In this document: positions 1-61,640 of the stretch, in pieces
How positions within the stretch are numbered: the first letter of the stretch is position 1
Layout: each line of letters opens with the position of its first letter
Made by a program: the position numbers and the translations under genes
The notes under the pieces: model-generated
Told to the model about the DNA's origin: nothing
Databases searched by the model: none
The model's input: only the letters and a program-made list of their open reading frames with translations
Source: Brachypodium distachyon
Lineage: Eukaryota; Streptophyta; Magnoliopsida; Poales; Poaceae
NCBI RefSeq assembly: GCF_000005505.3
Contig: NC_016134.3
Location: 43,005,150-43,069,149, forward strand
Length of the DNA stretch: 64,000 nt
Direction of reading: 5' to 3'

Positions 1-304
1 AGCTTCTCTCGGAAATTCAGCTTCATGCTGGTTTCTGAAGAAACCGAAGCCGAAAAGAAGGGGGCCCATGTTGATTTATAGTATCCAAGATGATCAATGA
101 AGAACGCAGACTCCCAATACCTCGCAATCCTATGTGTGTATAATCCTTCATGGAAACATATGTTTTATCTTGAATGCCACTTCCGATGAAACGCCAGGGT
201 GGAAGTGTGCTGTAGATGATTGTCAAGAGCTTCACAAGTGTGCTAAGTTTCTACAGGTGTATCGTACATGGTGTCTAGCTAGTGGCCTGGATCGACAATT
301 TATA
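1..304 (-). ncRNA. Putative 21-PHAS locus (miR2118-type target at 111-132)
   Basis: The plus strand at 111-132 resembles miR2118 (ATACCTCGCAATCCTA at its 3' part), so a minus-strand transcript would carry the target. A TATAAATT box lies on the minus strand at 297-304, about 165 bp upstream. The predicted cut falls between 120 and 121, and the phasiRNA body leaves the window on the left. The segment from the site to about 540 is similar to units at 1,460-1,940, 5,840-6,340 and 6,680-7,080. No ORF is convincing. The class is inferred from known grass miR2118/21-PHAS biology. Confidence 0.6.
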
Positions 305-309
305 GAGGT

Positions 310-1210
310 AGGGGCTTGAGTCGTGCCTTATCATGGTCATGGTCAGTTGGTCGATCAGGTGCTTATCCTTGGGATCTTTTCTTTTTTGAAACGACAAATG
401 CACTTAAGCACATCAGTGAAATCTGACTGATTGGGTCATGCATGCATCTTATTGTCCATGCATGGATTAATTGGTGACCTCACCTCTACATATGTATACC
501 TGAAGAGTTTTGATTCAGATCAGCGTCGAAATCACTAATCGATCATTAATACACATGGCCCTATCCTCCGACACTCCCTCCATCGAGGCCGCCGCGACAG
601 CCTCCCTCTGCCTGAGGCCAGCCTCCTCGCGCCCGACGCGGCATTGCTCTCTCAGGCTGCCTCCATTGAAATTTCATTGACTGCGGATGAATTTGGTCCC
701 ATGCAGATTTGCTTAGCTTTTGGTTCCATGCAAATTCGTTTAGTTCCATACAAATTTCATAGACGGCGGATGAATATTTTTTTTATCTCATAGATTTCTT
801 AGTTCTGAAATAGGATTGTGACTCTTTTTTTTTTTGTAAATTTGTTGTTGTTTGTACATAATTTCATTCGCTCCATTGAAGGTTCGTAAATTTCTCATTG
901 ATATCTTGTTGAAATTTCATAGATATATCATTGAAATCCATGATTTTGTTTTCGCACCGATCGCATTTCATACAAATCTTATTGAAATTTCACAAATACA
1001 ACATTGAAAACCCAAACGTGCAATTCTTTCATTGATACATCATTTAAAATATGTGTATATCATTGAACTTTCATTGACAAGTCATTTAAAATTTAATTCG
1101 TTAGCATCAGCCATTTCAATGGTATAACAATAAAAAAATCGTTGGCACCAATCATTGCAAAACTCGTTTAAATAGAAAAGTGTAGTGCGGTTTCATCCAC
1201 AAAAAGTTAA
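310..1210. other. Gene-free AT-rich stretch
   Basis: No gene is seen. Positions about 395-540 are a copy of a PHAS upstream segment also found at 1,805-1,925 and 6,190-6,330. It contains GGGTCATGCATGCATC and GGATTAATTGGTGACC in the same order in all three copies. From about 660 to 1,130 the DNA is low complexity, with many variants of ATTGAAATTTCAT. Confidence 0.6.
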
Positions 1211-1220
1211 GGGCATAAAT

Positions 1221-1610
1221 GAAAAATTGTCAAATGCTCTAGTTCCGTTCATTAGAATCAGATTGGATGCTCAAGGTTGCTTCGAAGCATGACACTGTGT
1301 GAGAGCACCTCATGGTTACGTAGCACTAGAAATCTCCTCTTGTTCGGTTGTATCTCATGGTTACGTAGCACTAGAAATCTCCTCTTGTTCGGTTGTATCT
1401 CACCGAAACACAAGGCGTCCATGTTGAACCAAAAGGATCTGGTTCTCTCAAGTAGCACGTGGATTCCTGATACCTCACAATCCTATATGACCAGGCATGT
1501 AGATGCACTGAAGAGGGATTCCGCATGGAAGAAGCAGCGAGAGTGGGTGCAGTGTGTCGTATATATACCTGGTGCCTCGCTACCTAGTGGTCCTGGGCAA
1601 TATATTTATA
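1221..1610 (-). ncRNA. Putative 21-PHAS locus (target at 1464-1485)
   Basis: The miRNA-like strand at 1464-1485 reads TTCCTGATACCTCACAATCC at its start, among the better matches in the window. A perfect minus-strand TATAAATA box sits at 1603-1610, 118 bp upstream of the target. The predicted cut is between 1473 and 1474. The body runs leftward and includes the 45-bp tandem repeat. A plus-strand locus starts about 300 bp to the right, so the two promoters are divergent. Confidence 0.7.
1309..1398. repeat. 45-bp perfect tandem duplication
   Basis: Two identical 45-bp units (1309-1353 and 1354-1398), each starting CTCATGGTTACGTAGCAC. They lie in the predicted phasiRNA-producing part of the locus whose target is at 1464-1485. 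Confidence 0.95.
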
Positions 1611-1910
1611 GAGCTGGCCTGCATACAGAGCCATGCCATGTCAAGGGTCTTGTGCTTCATTAATCATGTTAAATACCTTTCTCTGTCATGACACTATGGT
1701 CATGTGCTTAACGTACCTATTTTTTAAAATTCTACATGTTGATTGAAATCACACAAGCTTTGTGGTATTTTAATTCCAGAGGGAAGTTGAAATTTATATG
1801 TTGATGCTGGACAAATGCACTTAAGCACATCAGTGAAATCTGAATGATTGGGTCATGCATGCATCTTATTGTCCATGCATGGATTAATTAATTGGTGACC
1901 TCACCTCTAC

Positions 1911-2335
1911 ATATATATATAGCTTTAAATTGTCAAGGCCACCCCCGCCCCCCGTACCAGTAAGAGAATGCTAGCGGTGAGGTTGTCTTATATTCTGCAC
2001 AATCTTTTCCTCATCCATGGCGTAGCATGAATTCACTGTCCATTTCCCAACTGTATGGGCTGTAACAGATATAGAATTGCGAGGCACCAGGAAACCTCAT
2101 GCTTCCAAAATAGTCAGATGCACACCAGGAAATCCAAACTCTGGTGTCGCACATGCTTCAGCAAGCTGACTCACCTAGCTGTCGCGCCGCAACGTTGAAG
2201 CTTATGGTTCAGGAATTACCAACTGCAGGCAATTGGATAGAGTCAGTTACCGAGTTGGGTTAGGGGATGAGGTGTCGGTGAGGATCGGTCGGATTTGTCC
2301 CGGCGCCGTTGGCCGGCAGCGGCGATTCGTTTCCG
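1911..2335 (+). ncRNA. Putative plus-strand 21-PHAS locus (target at 2072-2093)
   Basis: The plus strand itself reads as a miR2118 target (GAATTGCGAGGCACCAGGAA within 2074-2093). A TATATATATAG box at 1911-1921 lies about 150 bp upstream. The predicted cut is between 2083 and 2084. The promoter abuts that of the minus-strand locus at 1,464, giving a head-to-head pair. The body runs into GC-rich unassigned sequence. Confidence 0.5.
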
Positions 2336-2339
2336 TCCT

Positions 2340-2632: not shown

Positions 2633-2638
2633 AAAAAG

Positions 2639-3453: not shown

Positions 3454-3853
3454 TATAAAAGCAAGAGCATGCAACGGCCACGTTTGATGTGTGTAGTGTG
3501 GGCTGTGTGGAGGTGAAGCTCTGAAACCATGACTGCTCATGAATATTCCATTTTTCTATCCCTTCGTCACCTTTTACATCTAGCAGTTTGAGGATTGGGA
3601 GGCATAAAAAAGTTGGTTCTCTAGAAAGATGGCTGCAATTGAAAAATACTAGGAATATAAATCCATGTTTCAGAGCCCACTAGAAGGGGATGTAAACACG
3701 AGAAAACTTTCACAGTGCTATTTAGTTTTAGTTGTGAAAAAGCGGAATGTTAAGATATGTATCAAACATGTGTATAGGTAGAGATGCGGTTGGGTTTGTA
3801 ATTCTCAGAGGGTTAGACGTTTGAGTCAAGCATGTGTAAACTGAACCGAATAT
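3454..3853 (+). ncRNA. Putative plus-strand 21-PHAS locus (target at 3590-3611)
   Basis: The plus strand carries GAGGATTGGGAGGCAT at 3590-3605, complementary to the centre and 3' half of miR2118. The part facing the miRNA 5' end is an A run, so pairing there is poor. A TATAAAA box at 3454-3460 lies 130 bp upstream. The whole segment from about 3,400 is duplicated at 7,245-7,483, where pairing at that end is better. The predicted cut is between 3601 and 3602. Confidence 0.55.
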
Positions 3854-4139
3854 ATAAACACGGCGTAGTCCAAATAGACTGAAAACAAAATAGAAATAGA
3901 CACGCAGAGCACCTAGTGTGGCCTATTGCAGTATTACGGGGAGGAGCGTCCGTAGTCATGCCCAGGAATGTCAGCTTCGGCTAAACCTCTCATTAACAAT
4001 CATCATGCCTGGGTGTCATTGATAGTGGATCCGCCGAATTCCATAACACGAAATAACATGAAAAGATAAATACAAAAAGAGGAGACAATTTTTTTTTGTT
4101 TCACTAGACTGCATATATTTCAATACGAGTTAATTTTTC

Positions 4140-5125
4140 TGAATTTGATAAATTTTGCCTAAAAAGAAAGAAAATGAGCAAGCACATAAAACATCTTTCA
4201 TAAAATGCTCTTTCGCGAGCGCAGGCGTCGCCGCCTCCCTCCTCGGTCGTCTCCCTTCGCCGTGCGGCCGCACAGCGATGCATCACGTACCTTCTCAGAC
4301 GAACGAACCCCCTGCCCAGCGTCGCCTTCTTCCGGCCCCAAGCCGCCGCTGCCATTGCGCACCTCTGCTCCTCCCCACCATCTCCGGCGGCTGAGGGCCA
4401 CTCCTCGACCATGGAGCACTTAATTTGTGGTTCCGCAACTACCTCCATGTCTCTTGCCCCACTTTCCTTCGATGCGGCTCCCTCCTCATGCTCGGCCTCC
4501 TTGCCGTTGCTACCCAGATGGCCGTGTTGGATACCTAAGCCGTCGAGGATCTGCTGCCGCCTGTTGGTGCTGGTAGACATCATCGTGATATCGTCCGGCG
4601 ACGTTTGCCGCCGTGGGCTTGCCGCCGGCATGCATAGACAAGCTTGTCGATGCCGTCGCGGTCACCCTCGGCCCCAAAGGTAGGTTCTTTTGCTCGCCTC
4701 GTCTCTGAGTGCAGATGTATGAGTACGTCTCCTTTCAGATTTTCGCTAATGTTTTCTATCTACCAATACAGTGAAGTAAAGAATTACCACATATGGATCT
4801 CTTTTCCCCTCGTAGTTAAAAACTGATTAAAGTGGGAACTAGATGCAAAATGTTGGGTTAACTGTACACAATGGTTTATGACTTGAATCCATTAATTTGT
4901 GCTAATATTTTATAATGTTAGGAATCGGATGTTATTTTCCAATTGGCCTTAGGATGTTTCACTAGCTAGAAGCTTCTATTTTGAACATTCAGTGAATGTT
5001 GGTTGTTCTTTTTTGCACAATTTAGTCCGGTAATTTGACAATAGAACTAGATATTTGTCGTTCTTTTTGCACAATTTAGTCCGATGATTTTACTAATCCA
5101 TGTCTCAACATTCAGTTACTGTTGA
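4140..5125 (+). pseudogene. CPN60 first-exon pseudogene (duplicate of 8.25-9.2 kb)
   Basis: Matches the 5' UTR, first exon and first part of intron 1 of the intact gene at 8,593. The ATG is at 4447 and the exon would end at 4679 before GTAGGTTC, the same donor as the intact copy. The reading frame starts MSLAPLSF and keeps the transit-peptide region. It then shifts near 4,630, where a small insertion turns the apical start of the chaperonin domain (AAGINKLAD in the intact copy) into an unrelated frame. Similarity ends in intron 1 at about 5,125 and no later exons follow. Its neighbours repeat the order seen beside the intact gene: plus-strand PHAS locus, then CPN60 exon 1. Confidence 0.85.
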
Positions 5126-5319
5126 AATATTTGTTGTTCTGCAACTACATCCATGTCTCACAAATATCGCATAAGAGGGGAGAGGCATAAGCACGAACCC
5201 TGATTCGGCAAACCTAACTTTTTAATGTTGGGTGGGGAAAACACTATAGTTTAATATTAGATGGGACAAATACACTGCGATTTTATTTTTTGGTAATTTC
5301 TATTATAAAAGTTTTTTTT

Positions 5320-5795
5320 TTAATTACTGGGTGGGGCGGGCCATTCCCAATCTTCCTGTTGGGCCTGCCCCGGAGCAGCACCGCCCCTGGAAGATTCCGC
5401 TGCGCCGCCACCTTGCCGGGCACGAGGAGCAGAGGGGCTTGCATGCTTGGAACAGCCAGCCCCCGCTTGAACTGAAGGAGCCGCCAACCCCGGCCCCCGG
5501 GGCGACACCAGCTGCCACGGCGGGAGTTGATGATCCCATGTTCCTGACTTCCTGGTCGCCTGGTCGCCAAGCATTGGCGACGTAGGCTGCGGAATAGGCC
5601 AGATGTTCAGACCAGCAAGATGTTGAGGAGCCGCAGGACGCTGCTTCCGTATCCGTCGACCTCGTCATCTTCTGCTCTCGCTGCCGCGGCCACCCTGTCC
5701 GCCGTCCATCAGAACGTCGCGGAAGGAGAGGGGGGAAGAGCTTGGTGACGACGAAAGAGCCAAATCCTGCTGTAGCCGACAACAGACTAAAAGGC
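5320..5795. other. GC-rich unassigned stretch
   Basis: A GC-rich island with overlapping ORFs on both strands, the longest being 152 codons on the minus strand at 5324-5782. No domain is recognisable, and its proline/serine/glycine-rich composition fits either a captured fragment or chance. It lies in the body of the PHAS locus at 5,840. Confidence 0.35.
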
Positions 5796-6007
5796 CTCTA
5801 TTTTCTGGCGGACAAAGAAAAACAAGAGGCACATCGTCCCTCCTGATACCTCACAATCCTATTTGATCAGACATTCAGGCATGGAAACAGATCTACATCT
5901 TGCATGCATTGCCATGGAAGAACTACATCTAGCTAGAGTGGGTGCAGTGTGTCGTATATATACCTGAAGCCTGGTGCCTAGCCACACAGTGGCCTGGGCA
6001 ATTTATA
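5597..6007 (-). ncRNA. Putative 21-PHAS locus (target at 5840-5861)
   Basis: The plus strand reads TCCTGATACCTCACAATCC from 5841, nearly identical to the 1,464 site. A minus-strand TATAAATT box occupies 6000-6007, 139 bp upstream. The interval between site and TATA shares GGGTGCAGTGTGTCGTATAT with the 1,464 unit, so the two are recent duplicates. The predicted cut is between 5849 and 5850. The body enters the GC-rich stretch. Confidence 0.7.
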
Positions 6008-6434
6008 GAGCTGGCCTGCATACTGATCGAGCGTCTGAGCCATGCCATGTCTGGTCCTGTGCTTAATCATCATAAAGACCTTTTCTGTCATGAAACTATA
6101 TGGTCATGTGTGCTTAATGTACCTTTCTTTTTCATGTTGATTGAAAGCTGAACTTTGTCGTCTTTTTTTTTTCCACGGGAAAGCTGAAATTTATATAGTG
6201 ATACAGGAGAAATGCACATCAGTGGAATCTGAATAACTGGGTCATGCATGCATCTCATCGTCCATGGATTAATTGGTGACCTGTACATATATATACCTCA
6301 AGAGTTTTGAATCACATCCGTGTCGAAATCAACACACGCTTTAGAACCAGACGAGGGACCATTGGTGTCCGGTTTCAGCACTTGGGAGACGAAAAGTATA
6401 CGAATAAAATTAAAGGAGCATTCGCTTACTTTTC

Positions 6435-6867
6435 GATAAGTCAAGGTACAAAAACATACTTTTCTCCTATTAGTATTACCGTTTTATTGATTACGACTTG
6501 ATGAAAAAAAGGTGGAATATGCCGGGTACCGAAGAGATGGAGCCACATCCCTGTCCATCGCTCAGCCACTATGAATGCACCGCTATAGGCACTCATCAAG
6601 CCTAGCAGTAATCTCTTTTGCCTGCAAAGTGTCCGTGTCGATTTACAGTATTTGGGAGAGTAATTGTGGAACACAGATTCCCAATATCTCTCAATCCTAT
6701 TCCTATATGAACCGGGCGTTGAAACAGATTGATCTTGGATGCCACTGCCGTGGATCTGTGGATGAACCAGAATGCATGGGTGTGTACTGTAAGTGATTGC
6801 AAGAGCTTCACTAGCCTTCTAACTTTCGGTAGGTGTATCTTCTACATGGTGGCTCAGGCAATTTATA
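6435..6867 (-). ncRNA. Putative 21-PHAS locus (target at 6678-6699)
   Basis: TTCCCAATATCTCTCAATCC begins at 6678. The minus-strand TATAAATT box is at 6860-6867 (161 bp upstream). It is closest to the locus at 111, sharing GATTGCAAGAGCTTCAC-like sequence between site and TATA. The predicted cut is between 6687 and 6688. Confidence 0.65.
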
Positions 6868-7106
6868 GAGGTAGGGCACAGAGCCATGCCACATATCATG
6901 ATCGGTGCTTATATTATAAAGACCTTCTCTTCCTAAAACTGTGGTATGTGGTTTTTCCCCATGTTGGTTGCCAACTTGCAATCCCATAAATTTGGTTTGC
7001 CTTTTCTTTTCCCAAAGGAAAGCTTCAATTAATTTATACACTAACAGATCGATGACAGTGTAAATACTACTCCAACGCACTAGTAAATTTTACGGTAAAA
7101 CGCCTT

Positions 7107-7161
7107 TTTTTTTTTTGAGGAATCGGGCAGTTGGGGCTGCCATTTCATTCAAGGAGTTTTG
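7107..7161 (-). mobile_element. Probable LINE 3'-end fragment
   Basis: A run of T followed by GAGGAATCGGGCAG and CCATTTCATTCAAGGAG resembles the 3' end and poly(A) tail of minus-strand LINE copies elsewhere in the window (for example at 37,041). It is very short and no target duplication was found. Confidence 0.35.
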
Positions 7162-7294
7162 CTAAGCTTTTAAAATTGGTTTCATATAGACCTAGGACAT
7201 CTAGCATTTTCCACCCGTGGGCTGTCAAGTTTTGACTGGAGTCTAGGCTGCAAGCATTAATATTGCCCATCGATAGAACTAGCCATCTCAACCT

Positions 7295-7725
7295 TATAAA
7301 AGCACGAAGATGCAACGGGCCTCGCTTGATACAAAGTTTTGTGTAGTGCTGTGTCAAACAAAAAGAGTAGGTGTAGTGAGGAGGCCAAACCCTGAAATTA
7401 TTGCTGCTCATTGGAGATTTCATTTTTCTATGATTTGGCCACTTCGTACATCTAGAAACTACAGGATTGATAGGCATCAGGAATTTAGTTCTCCAGAAAA
7501 TTAGAATAGGTAGAAAAACAGTAAAAACTCAAGCATCAGTTTTTCTGAAGCAATGAGAAAGATGTTGACACAAGTCTTTTGCTTGGATGAATCCAGTGAC
7601 GACTCCCCCCTCGTTGGCGTCTAGAGCATGAAACTTTCCTTTAGAGGACAGACAAGCATGATGATGTTTCTTGTTGTCTTTGTCCTCCATTGCAGCTGCC
7701 TGTGAAGCTGATAGTCTTAGAAGAG
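7295..7725 (+). ncRNA. Putative plus-strand 21-PHAS locus (target at 7462-7483)
   Basis: The plus strand reads CAGGATTGATAGGCATCAGG from 7462, a good miR2118 target. The TATAAAA box at 7295-7301 is 161 bp upstream. This is the duplicate of the 3,590 locus: TGCAAGCATTAATA and CCTTATAAAAGCA are common to both. The predicted cut is between 7473 and 7474. Transcription runs toward the CPN60 gene 1.1 kb downstream. Confidence 0.65.
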
Positions 7726-7729
7726 GTGG

Positions 7730-8240
7730 TCGGGGGAATGCCAACACAAAAAATCCATGCAAAGCTGCAAAAGGTGTTTGAGGAATACACTAAGCGCGAC
7801 GGTGCTTGTGTTTGAGCATCACCCCTCCTTGCGCGCCCGTGACAGATTTATCTTCTTCTTTCGTTTCCACAATAGCTTTCAGAGGCTTCTTTTTTTAATT
7901 GAACGCATGGCGTAGCTAGGACCTCTCACTCATGTTTGAGCCTATGTTACCTAGGGCCCAAAAAGGATAATTCTAGAATGCCAAGGCAATTTACCTTTTC
8001 TCTGGTGCATGCTCAAAGACTTATTTTCCTGTTTAAGTTTCATAAAATGGAACGGAATTTCTGTCGTCCCTGTCTCTCTAAAAGTGTAGACGTGAGAAAA
8101 GTTCAACGGTGACACATATGTTTTGAGAAGGAAAATCATGTGAAATAAAAAATGAAAGACATGTGCATTTTTTTTGTAACTAGATGATTATATAGGAGTA
8201 TTGCTTTGTTAAAAATACAGGTGCAAATGTTTCATGCGAT
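7730..8240. other. Upstream region of CPN60, no gene seen
   Basis: No convincing ORF is present. From about 8,245 the sequence matches the region upstream of the pseudogene exon (4,155 onward), including AAAGAAAATGAGCAAG. That match likely marks the start of the duplicated promoter/5' UTR. I could not fix a TATA box with confidence. Confidence 0.4.
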
Positions 8241-8592
8241 AATTTTTGCCAAATAAGAAAGAAAATGAGCAAGTAGATAAATCTTCTTTCCTAAAACCCT
8301 CGCACACACTACTCCCCTCTCCTTCCTTGACTGCACAGTTCACACACTCACCTGCTCGTCGCGAGCGCAGGCGCCGCCGCCTCCCTGCCCAGCCGCCTCC
8401 CTTCGCCGTGCGGCCGCAACGCTATACGCCGCGGGCCTTCTGAGACGATACGAATCCCCCGCCCGAGCGCCGCCTTCTTCCGGCCCCAAGCTGCCGCCGC
8501 CGCCGCACGTCGGTGCCTCCCCACCATCTCCGGCGGCCGAGGCCCACTCCTCGACCCTGGAGCACACAATTTGTGGTTCCGCAACTACCTCC

Positions 8593-13056: not shown

Positions 13057-13422
13057 TAATATAGGATGCCTAGGCTGTTATGTCAATCTCTTCAAGTTTA
13101 AGTAGCGTTTTCTTTTTACTTCTGATAATGTTCAGAGAAGTACGGGCTTCTGGTTGTGATACCAGCGGTTGGTGCCTTTTATTTTCTGCTTCAATATTTG
13201 CTGTGTGGTATGTTTGCTCTGCAAAGCTAGATCGAACTACAGCAAGTGTCTGCATGTCAGTACGATGCTTCAATACCATTACGCACTTGCGCAGGAAGAT
13301 TCCCATGGCCTCCCACGGTTCCTGGAGAGATGGTCTCTCTAATCAAGCAGCTAGCGAAGTCAAGCCAGGTTAAATGAGATGCAGCAAATATCCATGGGCT
13401 AGTGAAGTGAGGCAAATTTATA
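13057..13422 (-). ncRNA. Putative 21-PHAS locus with eroded target (about 13300-13316)
   Basis: GATTCCCATGGCCTCCCACGG aligns with intact sites in sibling loci but lacks the AATCCC block, so miR2118 3' pairing is lost. The minus-strand TATAAAT box at 13416-13422 is intact. The upstream module CTGACAACACAAA is at about 13,455 and ATTGATAGCGC at about 13,518, both shared with the locus at 15,361. Transcription on the minus strand would run into the 3' flank of CPN60. Triggering is doubtful. Confidence 0.5.
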
Positions 13423-15117: not shown

Positions 15118-15507
15118 CTCTTGTTTTTGGATCTACTAAAATGGATGGTTCACAATGATTTGAAGGCACTGTAAAACTGGTGGAAAAACCGTGTGCAACC
15201 ATCTTCAAATTGTTTTTTTTTCCGACTAACCATCTTCAAATTTTTGCATCCACATCCCATGGAGGAAGCCCATGTATCCGCGCCCTGAATTAGGGACAAG
15301 TAGGGCCAGCTAGAGAACTTAAACAAAGGACGAGTAGTGCTGTTACGTCGCACATCAATATTCCTGTAACCTCCCAATCCCATGAATGGTGCGTGGAGAG
15401 ACTCGATCGATCATACAGCTAGAGAACTGAAGAAAAATGAAGGACGAGTTAAATGGGACACAGCTAATATCCATTAATTAGCTAGTGAACTGAGGCCAAT
15501 TTATAAA
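15118..15507 (-). ncRNA. Putative 21-PHAS locus (target at 15361-15382)
   Basis: TTCCTGTAACCTCCCAATCC begins at 15361. The minus-strand TATAAATT box lies within 15498-15507, 116 bp upstream. The upstream element CTCTGACAGCACAAACAACC at 15,562 recurs in the loci at 13.3, 20.9 and 29.6 kb, and GAATTTGTTTAAAAA follows it. The predicted cut is between 15370 and 15371. Confidence 0.7.
15197..15242. mobile_element. Ultra-short T-rich insertion with 15-bp target duplication
   Basis: AACCATCTTCAAATT occurs at 15197-15211 and 15228-15242 around a 16-bp insert that is mostly poly(T). This is the signature of an L1-type insertion truncated to its tail. Confidence 0.7.
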
Positions 15508-16141: not shown

Positions 16142-16245
16142 AAAGTCGCCCATGCACGTGTACATTCCAGTCCCTGAGGTGTCAAAAGAAGTTGCGCTGA
16201 GTACTACTTCCTTGGCATCAAGATTCCCGTCGCCTCCCAATCCCA
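15981..16245 (-). ncRNA. Putative 21-PHAS locus (target 16224-16245) reading antisense CPN60
   Basis: TTCCCGTCGCCTCCCAATCC begins at 16224. The predicted cut is between 16233 and 16234. Registers from about the fifth onward fall in the CPN60 last-exon fragment. The expected TATA is missing: sibling loci read GTGAGGC(C/A)AATTTATAAAG, but here GAGGCC is followed directly by TTTCGCG at about 16,358. Expression from this promoter is therefore uncertain. Confidence 0.6.
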
Positions 16246-17353: not shown

Positions 17354-17730
17354 CAGCAGGATCAAGAGAATGATTTGCTTCAAAACGAAGCTGCAATCGT
17401 GGAGACTGGTTTCGTCGCACGAGGGTCTGCACGCCGGCCCTGATCAGTGGTTCAGAGCAACGTCCCTACACACCTAAATCGCACTCCTCATCCAATCCAT
17501 TCCTATCCTATCTCCTTCCAATTGGTCCGAGGCCGGGAACCGAGAGGTGTGGAGAAGATAGCTGCGTTGATGCGTTGCAACATCGGCGTGTGTAACTTCT
17601 CGGAGCCTCCCAATCCTACTAGTATATGCCTCAGGCAAAACCGCAAAAGACATTGAGAAAAGGAGTGTGGCATTGAGTAAAGGGCTAAAGGCAGGGGTGT
17701 AGACTGTAGAGTGCTTGCTCGTTTTAAATA
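17354..17730 (-). ncRNA. Putative 21-PHAS locus (target at 17597-17618)
   Basis: TTCTCGGAGCCTCCCAATCC begins at 17597. This locus belongs to a second promoter type: the minus-strand TATTTAAAACGAGC box lies at 17,717-17,730, 105 bp upstream. AGAAAAGGAGTGTGGCATTGAG between site and box is shared with 29,410. The predicted cut is between 17606 and 17607. Confidence 0.7.
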
Positions 17731-18552: not shown

Positions 18553-19036
18553 TGCACAGAGGGAGTGCAAGATGAACCGGAAGCCACCAGTGTATATCCC
18601 GCCCATTGTCCGTCCATTTTCGAAAGATTTCTCCTCTGCGACTTTCATGCTATTTTTGTCAGAGGTTGCACTAATGTAATCTGCCAAATTAGGCCGTCCA
18701 TCGCACACTCTGCCCTTTGATTTGGCCGTAGTTGTGTAGCCAGCAGCTGTTTTGGCTCACTTGTGCTGGGTGCTTCCTTGGCTTCCGCATCAAGATTCCC
18801 GTTGCCTCCCAAGTCCCAACCCCAGGGTGCGCGTGGAGAGACTCTCGATCGGCACCCAGTCGATTCATGCAGCAAAGTGGAGTGAAACGCAAGTCAAGTA
18901 CTCTCTCCGATTCTTGTCGTGGTTTTAATATAAATTTGAACTAAAAGCCCGACAAGAATTTACGATCGGAGAGAGCACGAGTTAAATGAGATGAAACTTA
19001 TATGTACTGCCTAGTGAAGTGAGGCCAATTTATAAA
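18553..19036 (-). ncRNA. Putative 21-PHAS locus (target at 18796-18817)
   Basis: TTCCCGTTGCCTCCCAAGTCC begins at 18796, with one extra base in the 3' half relative to siblings. The minus-strand TATAAATT box is at 19027-19036. A 75-bp MITE at 18,901 accounts for the longer spacing. CATCAAGATTCCCGT before the site is identical to the 16,224 locus. Further into the body, GAAGTACGGGCTT-like sequence at about 18,290 recurs at 13,137. Confidence 0.65.
18901..18975. mobile_element. Small Stowaway-like MITE inside a PHAS leader
   Basis: Termini CTCTCTCCGATTCTTGTCG and the complementary CGACAAGAATTTACGATCGG then AGAGAG. TA precedes it and CA follows. Confidence 0.7.
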
Positions 19037-22863: not shown

Positions 22864-23224
22864 TATGACTCTGAGAAACAAGATATGACCTCGGGATGGC
22901 ACGGTCTTGCGAGTACCCGTGGCAATACAGTCACAAGGAGGAAATAGCGATTGTTGCTCGAGTGGTAAATCAGGACAAACAGCCTGCATCTGATGCGATC
23001 AATTAACTATTGATTGACCAGATTGTCGACCCAAAGGTATGTCCGTATTCCTAACACCTCCCAAGCCCACAGCGTCCGTGCAAGTGCATCCATTTTCTTG
23101 TATGTCCGCAATCCACCTTTGTTCGATTTAAGAATGAATCGACCTTGTGCTCCTATACAAGTACACGGAAGAATCCATAGAGACAACGCCCGGGAGGAAA
23201 CTGGATGCCATGGAGATATATAAT
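22805..23224 (-). ncRNA. Putative 21-PHAS locus (target at 23048-23069)
   Basis: TTCCTAACACCTCCCAAGCC begins at 23048. It shares CACCTCCCAAGCCCACA with the 38,355 locus, so these two form a subgroup. A minus-strand ATTATATA at about 23,215-23,224 is a candidate TATA. The body runs into the nested retroelement tails and then the Mutator-like element. Confidence 0.55.
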
Positions 23225-29344: not shown

Positions 29345-29455
29345 ACAATTAGGTGTGCCATATGCCCAATCCTACTATGCAGGTATATTATGCTTCCACA
29401 AATAAAATTGTGGGAAAAGGTGGGGCGTTGAGCAAAGACAAAGGGGTCTATATAG
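29345..29455 (-). ncRNA. Eroded 21-PHAS unit (site near 29353-29374)
   Basis: GCCCAATCCTACTA at 29,364 keeps only the miRNA 3' half. GGGAAAAGGTGGGGCGTTGAG follows, as in the 17,597 locus, and CTATATAG at 29,448 replaces the TATTTAAA box. It is probably not a working target and overlaps the body of the next locus. Confidence 0.35.
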
Positions 29456-29775
29456 TGTATAGACTATGGAGTACGGTGTCTTTGGATAAAGACAATGATC
29501 AATTTTTCTTAGTGTCGCCTGTAGGCTTGTCGCTTTTACCTGTTCCAGCGCTCCTTCCCGGTTTGCCCGTTGCTACGCGGTGCGCATCCAGGTTCCCGTC
29601 GCCTCTCAATCCCATGATGCCAATTACGTAACCAACTATAAACATGCATCGAGAGACCCAATCTATCTCCAGTATTGTGTATATATGTAGTGAAGCCAAA
29701 TTAAGCGATCACATGAAGAAATTAAATCTATCTAGCCAGAGCCAAAACAAGTGCAAGCTGAACCCAATTTATAAA
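29350..29775 (-). ncRNA. Putative 21-PHAS locus (target at 29593-29614)
   Basis: TTCCCGTCGCCTCTCAATCC begins at 29593. The minus-strand TATAAATT box is within 29766-29775 (152 bp upstream), followed by the CCAAGCTGGCAGCAGAAACGA module. The predicted cut is between 29602 and 29603. It is a close sibling of the locus at 33,623. Confidence 0.7.
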
Positions 29776-31402: not shown

Positions 31403-31789
31403 TAGATCAATCTGCGGCACTTTTGGTTACTACGGCCCTGCAGCACGTTGTAGAACAGCTGCAAATTAAACACCTCTCTAGGGATCCTTCTAATAACACC
31501 CGACTTTCTGGTAAGTGTTCACTGTTCTTTACTTCCCTAAAATTTATGATTAAGTCGGGCGAAAATGTGAGTCACATGGAAATGACTATGAGTTCATGAA
31601 GTCAGAACTTAAGCGCCGATGCACCGTGATACTCTTGTGTGCTACATCCTGCTGCTTCCCAATCCTAGCTACCTAAGCTAGCTACGTCATCGATCGTAGC
31701 TATAGTTGTAAAGATGTGAACCTAGTGAGTAAAGGAAGTCTACGTGCAGTTTGATCAAATCACTATCGCGCGTGGCCGCTCATTTTATA
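31403..31789 (-). ncRNA. Putative 21-PHAS locus (target at 31646-31667)
   Basis: ATCCTGCTGCTTCCCAATCC begins at 31646; it lacks the first miRNA base match and is the loosest full-length match. A minus-strand TATAAAA box lies at 31783-31789, 116 bp upstream. The predicted cut is between 31655 and 31656. Confidence 0.55.
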
Positions 31790-33379: not shown

Positions 33380-33778
33380 TAATTAGCGAGTTGAGTGTGT
33401 TTTGATGGAAAAACTGACAACGGGGCCTACATGTCAGTGCCACCGTGGTGCAGATTATGTCGTAGTACTTCCCTGCACTAATTTGCTAGTTAATGTTAAT
33501 GTCCTATGAAGGACATTAATGTTACCCGCGCTATTCTTCGTCTACCTTCTGATTATTTTGGACATAGGTTTGCATCAGCTCATCATGCGGTGCAGATTAT
33601 GTCTCTGGTCTGCTCATCCAGCTTCCCGTCGCCTCTCAATCCTACGCTGCGAAGGTACGAACAAAATGTGTTTAGCATGCATCGAGATAGAATTGATCGA
33701 TTAATCATGCAAGAAAGTGAAGCAGCCCGGCCAAAACAAGTGCAAGCTGACAACAGAAAACGAGAGCCAATTTATAAA
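33380..33778 (-). ncRNA. Putative 21-PHAS locus (target at 33623-33644)
   Basis: TTCCCGTCGCCTCTCAATCC begins at 33623, identical over its first 20 bases to the 29,593 site. The minus-strand TATAAATT box is at 33769-33778 (125 bp). CCAAAACAAGTGCAAGCTGA upstream of the site is also shared. The predicted cut is between 33632 and 33633. Confidence 0.7.
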
Positions 33779-36150: not shown

Positions 36151-36289
36151 ATTTATACAGCCATACATTGTTGATCTTCGTTTGAAGCTTCCAACTCGTC
36201 CAGCATTATCTATGCATGTTCTGATTGTTCCTTTCTGATTTGTGAACTGCGATTGCGCATGATCTGTGCCGAAGATGCAAGAAGGATTC

Positions 36290-36665
36290 TGGTCACTTCA
36301 GGTTTTACTGTTCAACAAGAACAAATGTAGCCGCTGTGTTCAAGTTTTTCGCACATACTGAGTCCGCACCCCAAACTCTGAACACTGGCTTGAAGTACTT
36401 CGGAGCAACGCCCCTGCACTCCAAAGACGATATCATCTCCGGATTCAACGCAATGATGTTTCCATTGGCCGGAGGGAACTGATTGCTAACCAAAACATCG
36501 GGTTGATGCCTTGCAACACCCATGTGTGTAACTTCTCGGTGCCTCCCAATCCCACCACACATGTATACTTGTTGTATACATTGCCTGCCTAAAAGAAACA
36601 GTTGAGGAAGAAGTGACGTCGAGCAAATCTAAAGAGAAAATGACAGTGTTTGCTCGCTTTAAATA
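36290..36665 (-). ncRNA. Putative 21-PHAS locus (target at 36533-36554)
   Basis: TTCTCGGTGCCTCCCAATCC begins at 36533, one of the best matches. The minus-strand TATTTAAA box lies at 36658-36665, 104 bp upstream, in the GCTCG(C/T)TTTAAATA context of the second promoter type. The predicted cut is between 36542 and 36543; the LINE fragment starts about 390 bp further along. Confidence 0.7.
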
Positions 36666-38315: not shown

Positions 38316-38445
38316 GGCTCTCATAGGAGAAATTAGTTCGAAGACATATTGGTATTTCTGACACCTCCCAAGCCCACAAGAGTACGGCGAGAGACCCAAC
38401 AGCATACATAAGCGTGCTCCCTTCTCCTCCTAGTTATATTATATA
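38112..38445 (-). ncRNA. Putative 21-PHAS locus (target at 38355-38376) with LINE in its body
   Basis: TTTCTGACACCTCCCAAGCC begins at 38355. A minus-strand TATATAA box is at 38439-38445, 63 bp upstream, the shortest spacing seen. The predicted cut is between 38364 and 38365. The LINE begins at 38315, so from the third register onward phasiRNAs would be LINE sequence in the LINE sense orientation. Confidence 0.6.
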
Positions 38446-44522: not shown

Positions 44523-44907
44523 GTGATTTTTCATAGTTGTGTGATGAACGCTGAAAGAGATAAAATGGACATATAATGGGTCGTTGGGTGGTTGAAAAAT
44601 ATGGGTTGCTTATTTTGCTAGATGGATCCCACTACTAAATATTTTTTGACAGCACCACATGGAAACGAAGACACACAAATAGCACCGGCCGGTAACAAAT
44701 TTCGCTTTGGCACACTACTCGTGTCTTTGCAGGCGTAGATGCCTAGCGACACCTGCATGTGTTACTTCTCGATACGTCCCAATCCTACTACGGCAATAAA
44801 CACCCATGGCTAGTAACTTTAAAAACAACGACGATCCGTTTGTAGTTTGTACTGTGCAGACAAGCTAGGAAAAGCAAACAAGGAAACCTTCCTTCTCGTT
44901 TTAAATA
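44523..44907 (-). ncRNA. Putative 21-PHAS locus (target at 44766-44787)
   Basis: TTCTCGATACGTCCCAATCC begins at 44766. The minus-strand TATTTAAA box at 44900-44907 is 113 bp upstream, in the CTCGTTTTAAATA context. The predicted cut is between 44775 and 44776. The CACTA element begins about 500 bp further along the transcript. Confidence 0.7.
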
Positions 44908-48260: not shown

Positions 48261-48783
48261 GAGACTTGCTGTGCCATGGCCTTGCCTTGGCTTGTACGGG
48301 AACGGGAAAGACACTGGTTCCTTGGCGGCGGCGTGAGGGAAGACCTAGACTGAGCCAGATGCCCGCTCTCCAGTCTCCACACCCACAGGGGAGGCATTTG
48401 TATTTGTATTTGTGTCCTCCTCTTTCTTTTGGGCCGCCCAGCCTCCAAAAATGGGCCGGATCCCAGCTGAAAGGCTTCTTCAGCATAAGAAATGGAGCAT
48501 ATGGGCCGGGGGTATTTAATTGTATCAGCTCCATCTCCTTTACTGCATACGCACATTCCATGCAAAATTCCTGATCCTGACCGAGTGAAAGGAAAATGAA
48601 TTTTGAAATCCCTCTGGATGTGGTTGTGACCCAGTTGACAAAATGAATATGCATGTTTTCACTCTGTACTGCCCGGCATCTATGGTGTGCTTAACAATAT
48701 ATATAATGCTTTCTTAAGTCGATAAATTTGCTAAGGTGATCATATGTCAGACTTAGGTTTTAGATTAATTTACATCTAACATA

Positions 48784-53957: not shown

Positions 53958-54370
53958 TTGCAATAAGCATGTTGTTTGGTTTATTAATACCAACTGTTAC
54001 AATAGCTCTGCCTTCCTAGGCTAAATCAATCAAATTTACTCTGATGAGAGAGCAATAGTACAAATGATCCACAATTCATGTCTCAGCTACCAATCCAGCG
54101 GCGTCACGTTTTCACTAGACCGAGATATTGGGGCCTCAGAGTTGGTACAATTGGAGTCTTCACTGTTGGTGTCGATACGTCACGACACCGCTCATGTAAC
54201 TTCTCGATGCATCCCAGTCCTACCGGACCAATATGCACGCACGCATGGCTCAGACAAGAAAAAAGGAAGTCATTGAGGAAAGAGGTGTGCACTGTGCATT
54301 CGAGGAAAGGCAAACAAGGCCAACTAGCTTGCAGCATGTGCGTTGCTTGCCTTTGCTTCATATAAATGGA
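53958..54370 (-). ncRNA. Putative 21-PHAS locus (target at 54201-54222)
   Basis: TTCTCGATGCATCCCAGTCC begins at 54201. The box at about 54,360 reads CATATAAATGG on plus, a variant of the TTTTAAATGG seen at 59.5 kb; it is a weak TATA on minus. GGCAAACAAGGCCAACTAGC between site and box matches the 44,766 and 59,196 loci. The predicted cut is between 54210 and 54211. Confidence 0.65.
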
Positions 54371-56384: not shown

Positions 56385-57876
56385 ATATTTTGAAATAAGG
56401 GATTCCTCCCCAACTTTATTAACAAAGCCATATAAGTTCTACAAGGTTTAAAACAGAGAGGAAACAGCTACACATAGCTGTATCAAACTTCAGTTGCAAG
56501 GTTGCAAGGAGAACATCCAGATGCAACTGGGAATCCCACCAAAACAGCAGCTCGCGAGGCAGCGCCACACAGCGCAAAAGTCTACAGGAATCGCCAGAAA
56601 ACCAAAACGAGAGACGCTACACATAGCAGCCTGATTAAAACAGCGCTAATAGGGAGAGTAGAACTCATGCAGTAATTCTTCTTCCAGCAGGCGCCCATCC
56701 TTTGGATCTGTTGAAGACCTTGCATGCCACTTTCCTCATCAGCTTAGCTCCTGCCTGCAACCCCCTTCTCACCTTTGGCTTCTGCAAATCACACCAAAAA
56801 TCAAGCCAGTGACAAACCTGAAATATCACCCCAACGGGATCAGCAGGAATAATATGATCGAAATAGACTCGATTTCTGGTTTTCCACAAGGTCCAGACAA
56901 CAGCAGATAAGAAAATCTTAGCAGCTGCAAGATCAACCCCACGGAAGCGACCCATCCACTCCCCAACTTGGTCCATCGATCTAGGAGCATCTCCAGTATC
57001 AAAAGCTACTTGCAGAACTCCCCAGACAAAGATGGCCAAAGGACAACGAAAGAAGAGGTGACCGATAGTTTCATCCCCTGCACAAAACATGCAGTGATGA
57101 TCACCAATCCACCCTTTATTAACCAAATTGTCTTTGGTTAAAATTCTGCCCCATAGGACCAACCAAAGAAAGATTTTGATTTTACCAGGGAGTTTTAATT
57201 TCCACAGCTGTTTATATACTTTCTTTGGCTGTCTTGTTTGCAAAGAATTATGCATTGACTTAACTGAGAACTTCCCCCTATCAAGCTTCCAGCTAACTGA
57301 ATCATTAATTGAAGATAGCGAGGTGCCTTGGATAATAGCAAAGAGATCATTCCAAGCTAGAGCCAAATCCCCCCACAAACATCTCCTGAAACTCAAACAG
57401 CTTCCAACATAAAGCACCACCTTATTGACAGTAACAGTCTTACTGAAAGTTAGCAAACAACCGTGGGAATTGTTCAGCAAGCGGAGAGTCTCCATGCCAA
57501 CAATCCTCCCAAAACCTGGTCTGACATCCAGATCCCAGCACCCGTTTGCATCTATGAAAACACAGATTCTTAATCCCCATTAAACCACCCCAGAACTGAG
57601 AGATGCCCCAGCAGGCTGAGCCTGGGACAAAGTCTGTTTCTGCAGATATTTTTAAAAAATACACAACCCAGAACCATTTTCTATCTGCCACAACCATTTA
57701 CTTAACAAACTACATTCATGAGATCTAAATCTATAACCCCCAATCCACCTAAATCCTTTGGTGTGCACACAGAAGGCCAATTCACCAAATGATACTTGAT
57801 CCTCTTGCCACAGAAGCCTAGATCTGAAAAGGTCCAATCTCTTTTCCACCCCTTTTGGCAAACGATAAAAGGACAG
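56385..57876 (-). mobile_element. 5'-truncated LINE (C-terminal half of ORF2)
   Basis: The minus frame at 56665-57495 (276 codons) carries the zinc-finger RVT domain (LWKLKLPGKIKIFLWLVLWG, then CMFCAGDETIGHLFFRCP). Frames at 57440-57880 give the RT C-terminal region (LGGLGVIDLDL, RLPKGVEKRL). No endonuclease, RT catalytic core or RNase H is present. It is bordered on the right by the dispersed 0.5-kb repeat. Confidence 0.85.
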
Positions 57877-58440: not shown

Positions 58441-58450
58441 CTGAAACGAT

Positions 58451-58510
58451 CGAAAGCTAAAACCCTGTTGGCCTCAAAAAGAAAAGAAAACGAAAGCTAA
58501 AACCCTGTTG
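58451..58510. mobile_element. 20-bp A-rich insertion with 20-bp target duplication
   Basis: CGAAAGCTAAAACCCTGTTG at 58451-58470 and 58491-58510 surrounds GCCTCAAAAAGAAAAGAAAA. Confidence 0.85.
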
Positions 58511-58866: not shown

Positions 58867-58972
58867 TTGTCTCAAATTTATCTAAAAATACGTGAATGTA
58901 TCTATTTTAAAACAAACGTCTAGATAAATATAATATTTCGACAAGAATTTAGGATCCGAGTGAGTAGGAGGG
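58867..58972. mobile_element. Decayed Stowaway/Thalos-like MITE
   Basis: TAATTCTTGTCTCAAATTTA at the left pairs loosely with TATTTCGACAAGAATTTAGG at the right; GAGTGAGTAGGAGGG ends it. Confidence 0.5.
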
Positions 58973-59532
58973 AACACTGAAACCACCGGTACTGGCGGTA
59001 CATTTTCTAGTTCGCAAGATCAAGAATGCTAGAATGGGCAAAGATGAACTTTAGCACTCCATCGCACCTGGGTTGTGGTTGATGTCACCCACTGACCGGA
59101 CGCGATGCTGTTTCCAGCAGGGCCAAGGCGCTGGAGCACAAATTGGTGCCGAGGTATTGTCGGAGCCGATGCCTCACGACACCCGGACGTGCAACTTCTG
59201 GATGCATCCCAATCCTACCACACCAATATGCATGCATGATGACAAAAACTGTTACTCTTTGATGCTGTTTGTGGTCTGTTTGACGGAATTTGGTTTATTG
59301 ATGAACCTGTAATAGAAATCGTAGGAGTTCTCAAGTTGTTGGTCGTCCAGGGGTTTCTGGCGGCTCTTTTATTTCCTTTGCGGAACCTCACTGGATGTGA
59401 TCTGAACTATTTGATTTCAATGAAATCGGAAGCTTGCTCCTTGTTCCAAAAAATAAATAAATGAATGGCTTCAATGAGCAAAGGCAGACAAAGCCAGCTT
59501 CTAGCATGCGCTTGCTTGCTCTCGTTTTAAAT
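58953..59532 (-). ncRNA. Putative 21-PHAS locus (target at 59196-59217)
   Basis: TTCTGGATGCATCCCAATCC begins at 59196. GAGCAAAGGCAGACAAAGCC (about 59,477) and the CTCGTTTTAAATGG box (59,521-59,534) match the 54,201 and 60,466 loci. The 308-bp spacing is explained by an insertion at about 59,250-59,460. That insertion ends TTTCAATGAAATCGGAAGC then AAAAAATAAATAAATG, probably a plus-strand retroelement tail. The predicted cut is between 59205 and 59206. Confidence 0.65.
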
Positions 59533-60222
59533 GGTTGCATGTTGCGCGCGCGTTTCCATAAAATCGTGTAAAGCAATGGTACGGGTACATCGGTCCATCG
59601 GTGTAATGCACACATTAAGTCTATGTACTACCTACCTTTTAAATTACAAAATTGTACTGTAGTTTCTAACAGGAAATACAATAAAACTGTATCGAGACAC
59701 ATTTAAATGAAAAAAAGGCCATCTGAATTATTTTTTAAGTTTCATATAGTCTTTAGTCCTTATTCTGATCTCATGGCAATTTGTCAAATTAAACTTTCTA
59801 GTGAGATGACCCCCTTCGCTCAAACTTGATAGATTTCTGAGTCCTTTTTTTTTTAAAGACATGAACAATGATGTTTTGCACCAAACAGCCAACAACTTCC
59901 CCACCACCCTCATTTAATTCACCTCTCAGTAGTACTGGATCTATGCCCTAGCTTGATGCTCCTCTGCTCTCATCTCAGTTCCATTCACTCATGCTTCCCT
60001 CCATCGATCTCTGTTTCCCGTGACCTGTCGCTCTATATGCTCACGGTGTCCAATACTCCATGCATCTCGGTAGTAAGCTTGATGCTGCCTGGCGCCCCGG
60101 CCTCCCTTTGGTTTATCACCGACCGTGACGTCCTATGGACTTAGCAGTGGTCAGCCGTACGTCAGGGCAAGAATGAGTAACCACCACTCTCCAAGGTGGG
60201 GTGATGATGATTTCTTAGCTTG

Positions 60223-60633
60223 ATGACGCAATAGTAAGTCAGTGCTCGAGGGCCATCAAGCCTATTGGTTTTGGGGGAGAGAAATCAAATTGTAGCATCC
60301 CCAGTGGTCCAAGGGATCAAAAACAATTAGGCCTCGTTGGTTCTCACGTCAAAACCAAGGGGATTGGAAGGGATTCAAAATGAACTACAAACCCTTCCAG
60401 CACATGTTGAGGAACATATAATGAAGCATGCTAACCATGAAAAAAGGTCCCAAGCTGGACGAATGTTCCTGATGCCTCTCGATCCTATGCAAACAGACAA
60501 AAAAAGACTAATCGTGGAACCATTGGGGAAAAAAAATGTTTGCTCAGAGTGGGCGAGGCAGTGTTGTGGAGTCAAGCAAAAGGCAAAGGGAACATGTGCA
60601 GAGTGTGGGTTTGCTCTGTGCTCATTTTAAATA
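60223..60633 (-). ncRNA. Putative 21-PHAS locus (target at 60466-60487)
   Basis: TTCCTGATGCCTCTCGATCC begins at 60466, matching known miR2118 variants closely. The minus-strand TATTTAAA box is at 60626-60633, 139 bp upstream. The predicted cut is between 60475 and 60476. Its body (59,960-60,310) has a diverged copy at about 61,400-61,640. Confidence 0.75.
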
Positions 60634-60659
60634 CTCATCAACTTCTTATTCAGTAAAAT

Positions 60660-61640
60660 GGAGCACCTTCAGCAAGTTGTCCTTTAAATGATCCCTCGAG
60701 GTTGCTTCTTCTATGCATATTTTTTCCTACTTCGAAAGAAATGTGTTTCTCTTTTTAATAACGGTTTTGCTATTGATAAGTTGCCTGTTTTTTAATTTGA
60801 GATCAATCGACATATTAGCCATCTAGGGGCGGATTGGAACAGTGGTCAACCTGACGCACACTTTCTACTCAACTTGATGCATTAGCCTTATTAAACACAT
60901 AGTTAACATTAAAAACATTTTTTTACCTTGATGCCTGTGCATCAGGTGGGGCCTATGCAGCTCCGCCCCTGTAGCCATCGGATATTAATTCAACGATAGC
61001 AAAACAGGCGACTTAGAAATAACCACGTCCTTTTAATAAAGGGTGTAATTACTGCATGTGCAACCGATTATTTCCTTTAAAAGTTTCATAGTCCTTCCAA
61101 TCTTTCATTGCAATTCGCAAAAAATAATGCGAGTTGTAATGAAATTAAGATTGACTCAAACTGGGGAGACTTTTAATACCTTTTTTTTCGAGGAAGTGAA
61201 TACGCTTTACAAAAAATACTCAACAACTTCCGTCATCTTTTCACTAGACGACTAAATTTACCTCTTAATCTATTAATAAATTGCAGTATGTCTTTTGACC
61301 TACTATTTCCATATAAAAAATTTACCTCTTAGCCCCTGCTTGGAAAAGGTGTAAATTTTATGGATGGACCGGTATTTAATTCAAAAAGAAATGCACTTAT
61401 CCCAAACAGGTTTATCGTTTCCATTTTCCTGTGCTTATTCCCTCCATGTCTTTGTTTCCGGGTACTCTATCGCTCTCTCTATATATGTTGTCGATGCCCA
61501 TACTCCACATTCGTTGGTCATGCCCTTGTTTGAGAAACCTTGAAAATTGTGTGACAACATCCCAGTAGCCTAAGGATCAATTTTCCTTCAGGGAGTCCAC
61601 GGAAATCGAATGATAGCATAGCATTCCCAGTAGCCTCAGC
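60660..61640. other. Intergenic with a site-less PHAS-body copy
   Basis: No gene. Positions 61,400-61,640 resemble 59,960-60,310: CCCTCCATG, a CTATCGCTCT block, CCCATACTCCA, then AGCATTCCCAGTAG. No miR2118-like motif follows. Confidence 0.4.

Follow-up and report, generated by a model that had tools for sequence, protein, structure and literature searches.

A 21-nt cytosine register in the DNA of a probable miR2118-type phasiRNA supercluster in Brachypodium distachyon

Probable precursor loci of miR2118-triggered phasiRNAs carry a trace of their predicted processing in genomic DNA. Downstream of the predicted miR2118 cut we find a new feature: C is in excess at predicted phasiRNA 5′ ends, with a period of 21 nt and in step with that cut. 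The loci lie in a 64-kb stretch of the Brachypodium distachyon genome (the window), very probably the central part of a supercluster whose members are precursor loci of 21-nt reproductive phasiRNAs (21-PHAS). A first-pass annotation had read it as a putative miR2118-type 21-PHAS cluster, and the sequence supports that reading.

Each locus would be a short non-coding Pol II unit with a TATA box, a 22-nt miR2118 target about 70–220 nt further on, and then an siRNA-yielding body. The genome encodes miR2118 in hairpin clusters at other locations; this miRNA would cleave the transcript across from its own nucleotides 10/11, RDR6 would make the 3′ cleavage fragment double-stranded, and DCL4 would dice it every 21 nt. 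We infer that the loci are transcribed, cleaved, phased and expressed in anthers.

Target sites, their strand and their TATA boxes

Read-back confirmed the motif at all 23 coordinates annotated previously, 20 plus-strand copies and three reverse copies. We scored the sites by the rule published for Brachypodium (a mismatch counts 1, a G:U pair 0.5; cut-off 5) against 15 distinct hairpin-borne MIR2118 matures from the same genome. By this measure 21 of the 23, scoring 2 to 4.5, are good miR2118 target sites; the other two had been called eroded, correctly. The cut positions given earlier, between the tenth and eleventh letters of a plus-strand copy (p+9/p+10), are also correct as predicted cuts. 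The sites follow in window coordinates, with the target strand.

111..132, minus strand, target site, score 3.0; TATA 297-304
1464..1485, minus strand, target site, score 2.5; predicted cut 1473/1474; loose TATA (TATAAATA) ~125 nt upstream
2072..2093, plus strand (predicted transcript strand), target site, score 4; loose TATA ~160 nt upstream
3590..3611, plus strand (predicted transcript strand), target site, score 4; TATA 3454-3461
5840..5861, minus strand, target site, score 3.0; TATA 6000-6007
6678..6699, minus strand, target site, score 3.5; TATA 6860-6867
7462..7483, plus strand (predicted transcript strand), target site, score 3; TATA 7295-7302
13300..13321, minus strand, eroded target site, score 5.5; TATA kept, 13415-13422
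15361..15382, minus strand, target site, score 4.0; TATA 15498-15505
16224..16245, minus strand, target site, score 3.5; no TATA found
17597..17618, minus strand, target site, score 3.5; TATTTAAA at 17723-17730
18796..18817, minus strand, target site, score 4.5; TATA 19027-19034
23048..23069, minus strand, target site, score 3.0; loose TATA ~153 nt upstream
29353..29374, minus strand, remnant site, score 12; little left beyond the segment opposite miRNA nt 13-22
29593..29614, minus strand, target site, score 3.0; TATA 29766-29773
31646..31667, minus strand, target site, score 4; TATAAAAT at 31782-31789
33623..33644, minus strand, target site, score 2.5; TATA 33769-33776
36533..36554, minus strand, target site, score 3.0; TATTTAAA at 36658-36665; predicted cut 36542/36543
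38355..38376, minus strand, target site, score 3.5; loose TATA ~69 nt upstream
44766..44787, minus strand, target site, score 4.0; TATTTAAA at 44900-44907
54201..54222, minus strand, target site, score 3.5; no TATA found
59196..59217, minus strand, target site, score 4; no TATA found
60466..60487, minus strand, target site, score 2; TATTTAAA at 60626-60633; predicted cut 60475/60476

The motif is far more frequent than chance allows. A search of the window with TTCCTGATGCCTCCCAATCCTA at up to five mismatches returned 18 plus-strand and three minus-strand matches, against 0.17 expected per strand. Over 500 trials, scrambled motifs averaged 0.05 matches and never exceeded 2, and the reversed motif gave none in the window. 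Seventeen of the 18 plus-strand matches were already annotated; 18796, at six mismatches, falls outside this set. The one new match, 51164 (score 5), we dismiss as a target site: it sits inside a LINE reverse-transcriptase ORF and has no register signature.

The cluster extends past both ends of the window, which is its core. In addition to the 21 intact sites within 64 kb, further sites in both flanks make up a supercluster of roughly 100 kb in the 271-Mb genome (window coordinates about −13.8 to +86 kb), interrupted by one gap of about 23 kb. The DNA-testable features agree with the earlier description of one 21-PHAS cluster, except that the window holds only its core. Transcription almost entirely from the minus strand, as had been proposed, fits the sites beyond 7.5 kb. 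Orientation is mixed at the left end and in the left flank: all three reverse copies lie left of 7.5 kb, and six of the 36 listed window and flank sites point the other way. The strand bias (18 versus 3, binomial p 0.0015) is not a count of independent events, because the loci are paralogues.

A TATA box precedes most targets on the target strand only. The strict pattern, TATAAAWK or TATTTAAA with letters picked after seeing the window, occurs about 50–220 nt upstream of 14 of the 21 good sites, against 4.8% of random stretches. Across all 36 window and flank sites, weak and eroded ones included, it precedes 21, whereas the mirrored place on the other strand has it in 0 of 36. A looser pattern (14% background) recovers 18 of the 21, leaving 16224, 54201 and 59196 with no TATA. 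The loose-pattern distances run from −69 to −217, so the "similar distance" of the first-pass annotation holds only loosely. The box lies on the predicted strand far more often than by chance. The strand-specific box replicates outside the window: a generic TATA pattern marks 15 of 22 sites elsewhere in the genome on the target strand versus 2 of 22 on the opposite strand, and 37 versus 4 of 55 other-cluster loci, a set that partly overlaps the 22. An upstream k-mer scan also returned, beside TATA-related words, GCCTTT, TGGCTA, ATTAAT and TACGACA, uncorrected for the some 3,500–9,300 words tried.

Seven ORFs overlapping or adjoining sites gave no Pfam match above cut-off, in a search that took in 19 of 58 listed ORFs (two of the 19 near-identical in coordinates). 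No site lies within five mismatches of two miR2275 consensus sequences; a third 21-mer has two weak matches, at 47735 and 88481. Period 24 is flat in the window and flank loci (z −0.20, rank 15 of 24) and ranks 4 of 24 in other clusters (z 1.18). With no consensus site and no 24-nt period in the window loci, we reject a 24-PHAS (miR2275) identity.

A 21-nt register downstream of the predicted cut

The C excess appears on both strands, and its phase is exactly that set by the predicted nt 10/11 cut. Over registers 1–10 of 30 loci from window and flanks, C frequency in register is.340 versus.219 on the top strand and.313 versus.228 on the bottom, the best of 21 offsets; block permutation gave p 5e-5, the lowest value it can return. 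The signal sits mainly in registers 1–10 and spans about 10–15 overall, with no excess beyond register 20 (z −0.2) and none at some individual registers (4 and 12, for instance). Upstream of the cut there is no register signal (z 1.1 and 0.4), and five other periods gave z −1.4 to −0.1 in the window and flank loci. The 30-locus set leaves out the flank PWM matches −7305, −4493, 84118, 85252 and 85985 and the eroded sites 13300 and 29353; when −7305, −4493, 84118 and 85985 are restored, the 13 copies in the flanks keep their rank of 1 of 21, more weakly (z 2.05).

The signature is noisy in single groups. Among nine subfamily groups from window and flanks, five rank 1 of 21 and group C ranks 5. 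The single locus at 38355 ranks 18 of 21, without a register signature of its own. Within paralogue pairs, in-register gain of C is weakly suggestive; the pairs lack independence, and the comparison is given without a significance value.

The register replicates in other clusters. The first look, which supplied the rule, was exploratory; the rule was then fixed before the replication loci were examined for register. In 56 loci from 23 other clusters, registers 1–12 show.308 versus.223 and.284 versus.237, again the best of 21, with a cluster-block p of 2e-5, the floor of that test; five of the 23 clusters fall short of the null mean rank of 11. The set comprises 40 loci hand-picked to cover clusters from 100 listed of 138 matches, plus 16 more. 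One too-short site was left out, as were 20 other stretches because they offer only about 190 nt on each side. Register signal was absent from 194 decoys (z 0.28), from 21 MIR2118 sites (z −1.27) and from the wrong strand (z 0.73). The window set also showed a U at phasiRNA position 14, which failed to replicate in other clusters.

Known systems and the origin of the register

These loci are of a known kind, since B. distachyon is reported to have more than 1,100 phased loci, 288 of them initiated by miR2118a/b (PMC4053937). Species, trigger family and scoring cut-off (met by 21 of our 23 sites) are the same, and the published loci most likely include the present ones; they were defined by small-RNA and PARE reads (PMC4053937), whereas ours were read from DNA alone. 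Rice miR2118 21-PHAS superclusters are described as likewise intergenic and clustered, with a miR2118 site near one end (Johnson et al. 2009, cited in PMC4788661). The Brachypodium sites differ in having U opposite miRNA nucleotide 17, and add the TATA box and the DNA-encoded register as features. Eudicot reproductive 21-PHAS loci have other triggers (miR11308, miR14051), and in strawberry the target site is reported to be the only conserved precursor region (PMC8368212); the present loci also commonly share a strand-specific TATA box.

The likeliest cause of the 5′-C excess is selection for 5′-C phasiRNAs that load AGO5-type Argonautes, of which rice MEL1 is one and which prefer a 5′ C; that selection would have written the rhythm into the DNA. 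In the rice MEL1/AGO5c system, sequenced germ-cell phasiRNAs start mostly with C, and rice anther phasiRNAs also favour G at position 19 (PMC7562718, PMC7305157). These are the two places enriched here, though the rice bias was measured on sequenced RNAs and ours is one of genomic DNA at computed register positions. The miR2118-dependent class of the rice anther wall, reported as U-rich, also at the 5′ end (PMC7305157), is unlike the pattern at our loci. On balance we favour the view that selection keeps C at in-phase phasiRNA 5′ ends on both strands of the genome's miR2118 loci, with drift elsewhere in the precursor.

DCL4 dicing-site preference or small-RNA-linked mutation bias, rather than Argonaute loading, could also place C in register. 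The excess is symmetric at both dicing ends, and the present data do not separate dicing from loading. We nonetheless regard this origin as unlikely, since 5′-C enrichment is published for germ-cell and MEL1-bound phasiRNAs (PMC7562718, PMC7305157), and methylation-driven decay would presumably take C away, not add it.

If selection for loading is the cause, it would act on individual duplexes, as a genome-encoded 5′-C register that fades away from the cut suggests. PHAS sequences are reported hardly to match from grass to grass (PMC7057497), and rice without miR2118, RDR6 or DCL4 to be male-sterile (PMC7562718). On the loading view, individual phasiRNAs would be selected for entry into a 5′-C Argonaute and not to match any particular target sequence. 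The phase register would be readable from DNA alone, and live and dead locus groups separable without small-RNA data. Such a read-free test could be applied to any sequenced grass and would predict functional registers; should the register hold in rice and maize, the selective value of PHAS loci would be tied to Argonaute sorting.

The loci might instead be real but dead PHAS relics, their sites kept only through recent duplication and now unused. Erosion has affected two of 23 sites, no TATA box is found at three, and flanks are common to paralogues. Yet the closest paralogue pairs have diverged to 55–72% identity in their flanks while their motifs remain about 81% identical. In a flank-derived tree of 31 loci, the target site evolves more slowly than its surroundings: flank columns (n=93) average 10.0 steps, against 0–10 in motif columns, with 9 of 22 at three or fewer. 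Information content averages 0.09 bit in the flanks and runs from 0.30 to 1.90 in the motif. The register, present in intact sites, is missing from the two eroded ones pooled (z −1.23), a comparison with little power at n=2. We consider decay of the whole cluster quite improbable.

Still less probable is descent from NBS-LRR genes, the ancestral miR482/2118 targets, with the sites conserved as P-loop code or fossil. The target strand admits the reading G-L/M-G-G-I, which we take to be P-loop-like, and the split between A17 and T17 sites described below would suit an L or M codon. Four translated sites, however, show no P-loop continuation (no G-K-T-T), and Pfam found no NB-ARC in the 19 ORFs searched; a distant origin in such genes may still hold.

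MIR2118 genes and the mismatch at nucleotide 17

That the plus-strand copies are MIR2118 genes themselves has almost no probability left: at 20 sites the plus strand does read like mature miR2118, not its complement, and MIR2118 genes are clustered in this genome too, but the register and TATA signals sit on the opposite strand and folding refutes the gene reading as far as it goes. An Rfam search of the window gave no MIR2118 match. A model built from 18 hairpins, run over 144 kb, gave one weak match, which lies in a flank, away from the sites. Motif–flank pairing at 24 sites stays within the random range (10 to 90% of random flanks equal it), the best reaching −20 kcal/mol. True MIR2118 hairpins lie at 13.92–14.00 Mb of contig C6, where 18 of 21 motif copies pair with their 5′ flank at −16.7 to −27.7 kcal/mol. 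Genome-wide, at least 19 MIR2118 genes exceed the Rfam (RF01911) cut-off, all outside the window, a lower bound from scoring 36 of 20,279 first-look candidates.

Targets and miRNA share one systematic mismatch. In 20 of the 21 sites the target U faces miRNA U17, and T17 is present in all 18 aligned hairpins, the 15 distinct matures and an 88-bit Rfam gene (the last read by eye). A cognate miRNA with A17 was sought and rejected: none of the MIR2118 hairpins read carries A17, and the eight A17 sites listed outside the window, one mismatch from the A17 consensus, have no MIR-like fold. The Rfam search scored 36 of 20,279 genome candidates, and an A17 gene may lie among the rest. The letter-17 split between clusters rests on matches with at most two mismatches; at that level the cluster at 4.7 Mb of contig C1 is uniform, and A17 sites appear there at three mismatches.

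Predicted targets and precursors of miR2118

The window holds a dense set of predicted miR2118 targets. All 23 miR2118-type motif coordinates in the first-pass annotation, 20 on the plus strand and three reversed, proved right, and the motif occurs far beyond chance expectation in this stretch (43,005,150–43,069,149 of contig C5; 271.3-Mb genome, 11 contigs). Scored against the genome's own MIR2118 matures, 21 sites are good predicted targets and two, at 13300 and 29353, are eroded, as that annotation had called them. A position-weight scan of the window and 40 kb on each side placed the left start of the cluster near -13.8 kb and gave no match between ~60.5 and 84 kb. At 84–86 kb lies a second group, somewhat different from the window sites, in which the letters facing miRNA nucleotide 17 vary and the strict TATA box is missing. 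The dense set of miR2118-type target loci is thus confirmed, and its interpretation as a putative 21-PHAS cluster is supported. The cluster, of an already known kind, is probably among the published phased loci (PMC4053937).

Because the plus strand spells the miRNA itself, hairpins needed ruling out. We rejected the window sites as MIR2118 hairpins: their flank pairing was not above random and they had no Rfam match. As a positive control, 18 of 21 motif copies on contig C6 (13.92–14.00 Mb) can base-pair with the sequence on their 5' side (-16.7 to -27.7 kcal/mol). Genome-wide, at least 19 MIR2118 genes exceed the Rfam cut-off, 17 on C6 and two on C5 at 7.47 Mb, a lower bound since 36 of 20,279 first-look candidates were scored.

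MIR2118 genes and target-like sites outside the window
C6:13.924–13.999 Mb and C5:7.469 Mb (stretches L001, L002, L008–L017): MIR2118 gene clusters, 17 + 2 precursors above the Rfam cut-off
C5:43,089–43,091 kb, window coordinates 84118–85985 (L024): small group of target-like sites, set apart from the window cluster by 23 kb

A MIR5070 match also lies within the C6 MIR2118 cluster (L009:5657–5772). In the right flank, L023:5246–5367 matches the MIR2118 hairpin model weakly (17.5 bits, E 0.024), at no listed target site.

The motif and a TATA box are conserved. Motif columns carry 0.30 to 1.90 bit; flank columns average 0.09 bit, with three single columns at 0.65–1.03. When 31 loci were placed on a tree inferred from flank sequence only, 18 of the 22 motif columns took 0–5 steps and the 93 flank columns a mean of 10.0, while motif columns 5 and 14 varied as freely as the flanks. 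A strict TATA box, mostly TATAAATT or TATTTAAA, occupies the target strand at 14 of 21 window sites against a 4.8% background, and the mirror position at none of 36 sites. Because its letters were picked after inspecting the window, a fair test has to come from the other clusters: there a generic TATA was found in 15/22 versus 2/22, and in a further set, which overlaps those 22 sites, in 37/55 versus 4/55. The box predicts a transcription start ~30 nt downstream of it.

A 21-nt register of cytosine

If miR2118 cuts opposite nucleotides 10/11, the expected 5' ends of phasiRNAs can be derived from the DNA sequence alone. Over 30 loci from the window and its flanks, predicted 5' ends in registers 1–10 had an excess of C on the top strand (.340 versus.219) and also on the bottom strand (.313 versus.228), where a 2-nt 3' overhang was assumed; register 0 was omitted because it overlaps the target site. 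Offset 0, the phase set by the predicted cut, was the highest of 21 offsets, and periods of 19, 20, 22, 23 and 24 gave no C signal at these loci. The excess falls with distance, from.380/.347 (top/bottom) in registers 1–5 to.300/.280 in 6–10 and.253/.253 in 11–20; it was absent beyond register 20 and not significant upstream of the predicted cut (z 1.1 and 0.4). With a random offset per subfamily, 0 of 20,000 trials attained the observed value, and subfamily groups ranked 1, 1, 2, 5, 1, 1, 18, 1 and 3. The 21 intact window loci by themselves ranked first (z 6.0), as did the three reverse copies (z 2.9) and, weakly, 13 flank copies (z 2.05). At least one 5' C was present in 53.7% of duplexes in registers 1–10, versus 40.9% at other offsets.

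The signature recurred elsewhere in the genome under an unchanged rule (registers 1–12, top offset 0, bottom offset 18). At 56 loci from 23 other clusters, C frequencies were.308 versus.223 and.284 versus.237, rank 1 of 21, and other periods gave z of -1.2 to 1.2. With whole clusters as blocks, 0 of 50,000 trials attained this value; the mean rank over the 23 clusters was 5.96 versus 11, yet five ranked worse than 11. Single registers are noisy, and registers 4 and 12 had no excess across all 86 loci. The controls lacked a register signal: z was 0.28 for the 194 weak motif matches, -1.27 for the 21 MIR2118 sites, -1.23 for both eroded window sites together, -1.34 for the extra match at 51164 within a LINE, and 0.73 when the 18 plus-strand window sites were scored from the wrong strand.

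What the register may mean is suggested by rice. Most 21-nt germ-cell phasiRNAs there begin with C, and MEL1 binds many of them (PMC7562718); MEL1-bound phasiRNAs are mostly 5' C, and anther phasiRNAs in addition have G at position 19, which is attributed to the 5' C of the complementary strand (PMC7305157). Those features belong to sequenced RNAs, whereas here the same two places are enriched in genomic DNA. Unlike the U-rich phasiRNAs of the rice anther wall (PMC7305157), predicted top-strand 5' ends were not enriched in T (.225 in the window and flanks,.234 in the replication set). The simplest reading is that the C register reflects selection for 5'-C loading; possibly it reflects a dicing preference instead. 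The register signature is the part that deserves specialist attention. We found no report of a DNA-read register or a shared TATA box in the open-access literature, mostly seen at listing level; related work on phasiRNA composition exists in other journals.

The letter facing miRNA nucleotide 17

All MIR2118 hairpins read have U17, and a U faces this nucleotide in 20 of 21 window targets, giving a U:U mismatch. Among the matches listed genome-wide, 88 non-MIR entries comprise 39 U-facing sites (A17), 48 properly paired and one G:U, and the letter is uniform (A or T) in 18 of 20 multi-site groups. Looser matching brings A17 sites into one T17 (paired) group. In the replication set the register occurs at one and the same phase in both kinds, A17 (n=32, z 3.1) and T17 (n=24, z 4.2); the mismatch therefore apparently neither prevents the predicted cut nor moves it. 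A putative A17 trigger would be a 22-nt RNA with the end CAAUCCUA.

Other features of the window

Genes, fragments and repeats, in window coordinates
4204–5056 and 8281–10556: two diverged gene-fragment copies, ~78% identity over an 879-column alignment
49066–53207, minus strand: LINE-type retroelement, with different ORFs matching endonuclease, reverse transcriptase and RNase H
35463–36152, 37489–37959 and 56665–57579: more RNase H and zf-RVT pieces
47733–48658, minus strand: two frames that overlap, with matches to F-box and KIB1-4 beta-propeller
43306–43839: tandem array, four 133-bp units, 97% match
62931–63182: tandem array, about four 60-bp units

The ORFs at 8281–8874 and 10194–10556 had no Pfam match; by eye, we take the duplicated fragment to resemble chloroplast chaperonin-60 alpha. 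The F-box segment is either a gene or a pseudogene.
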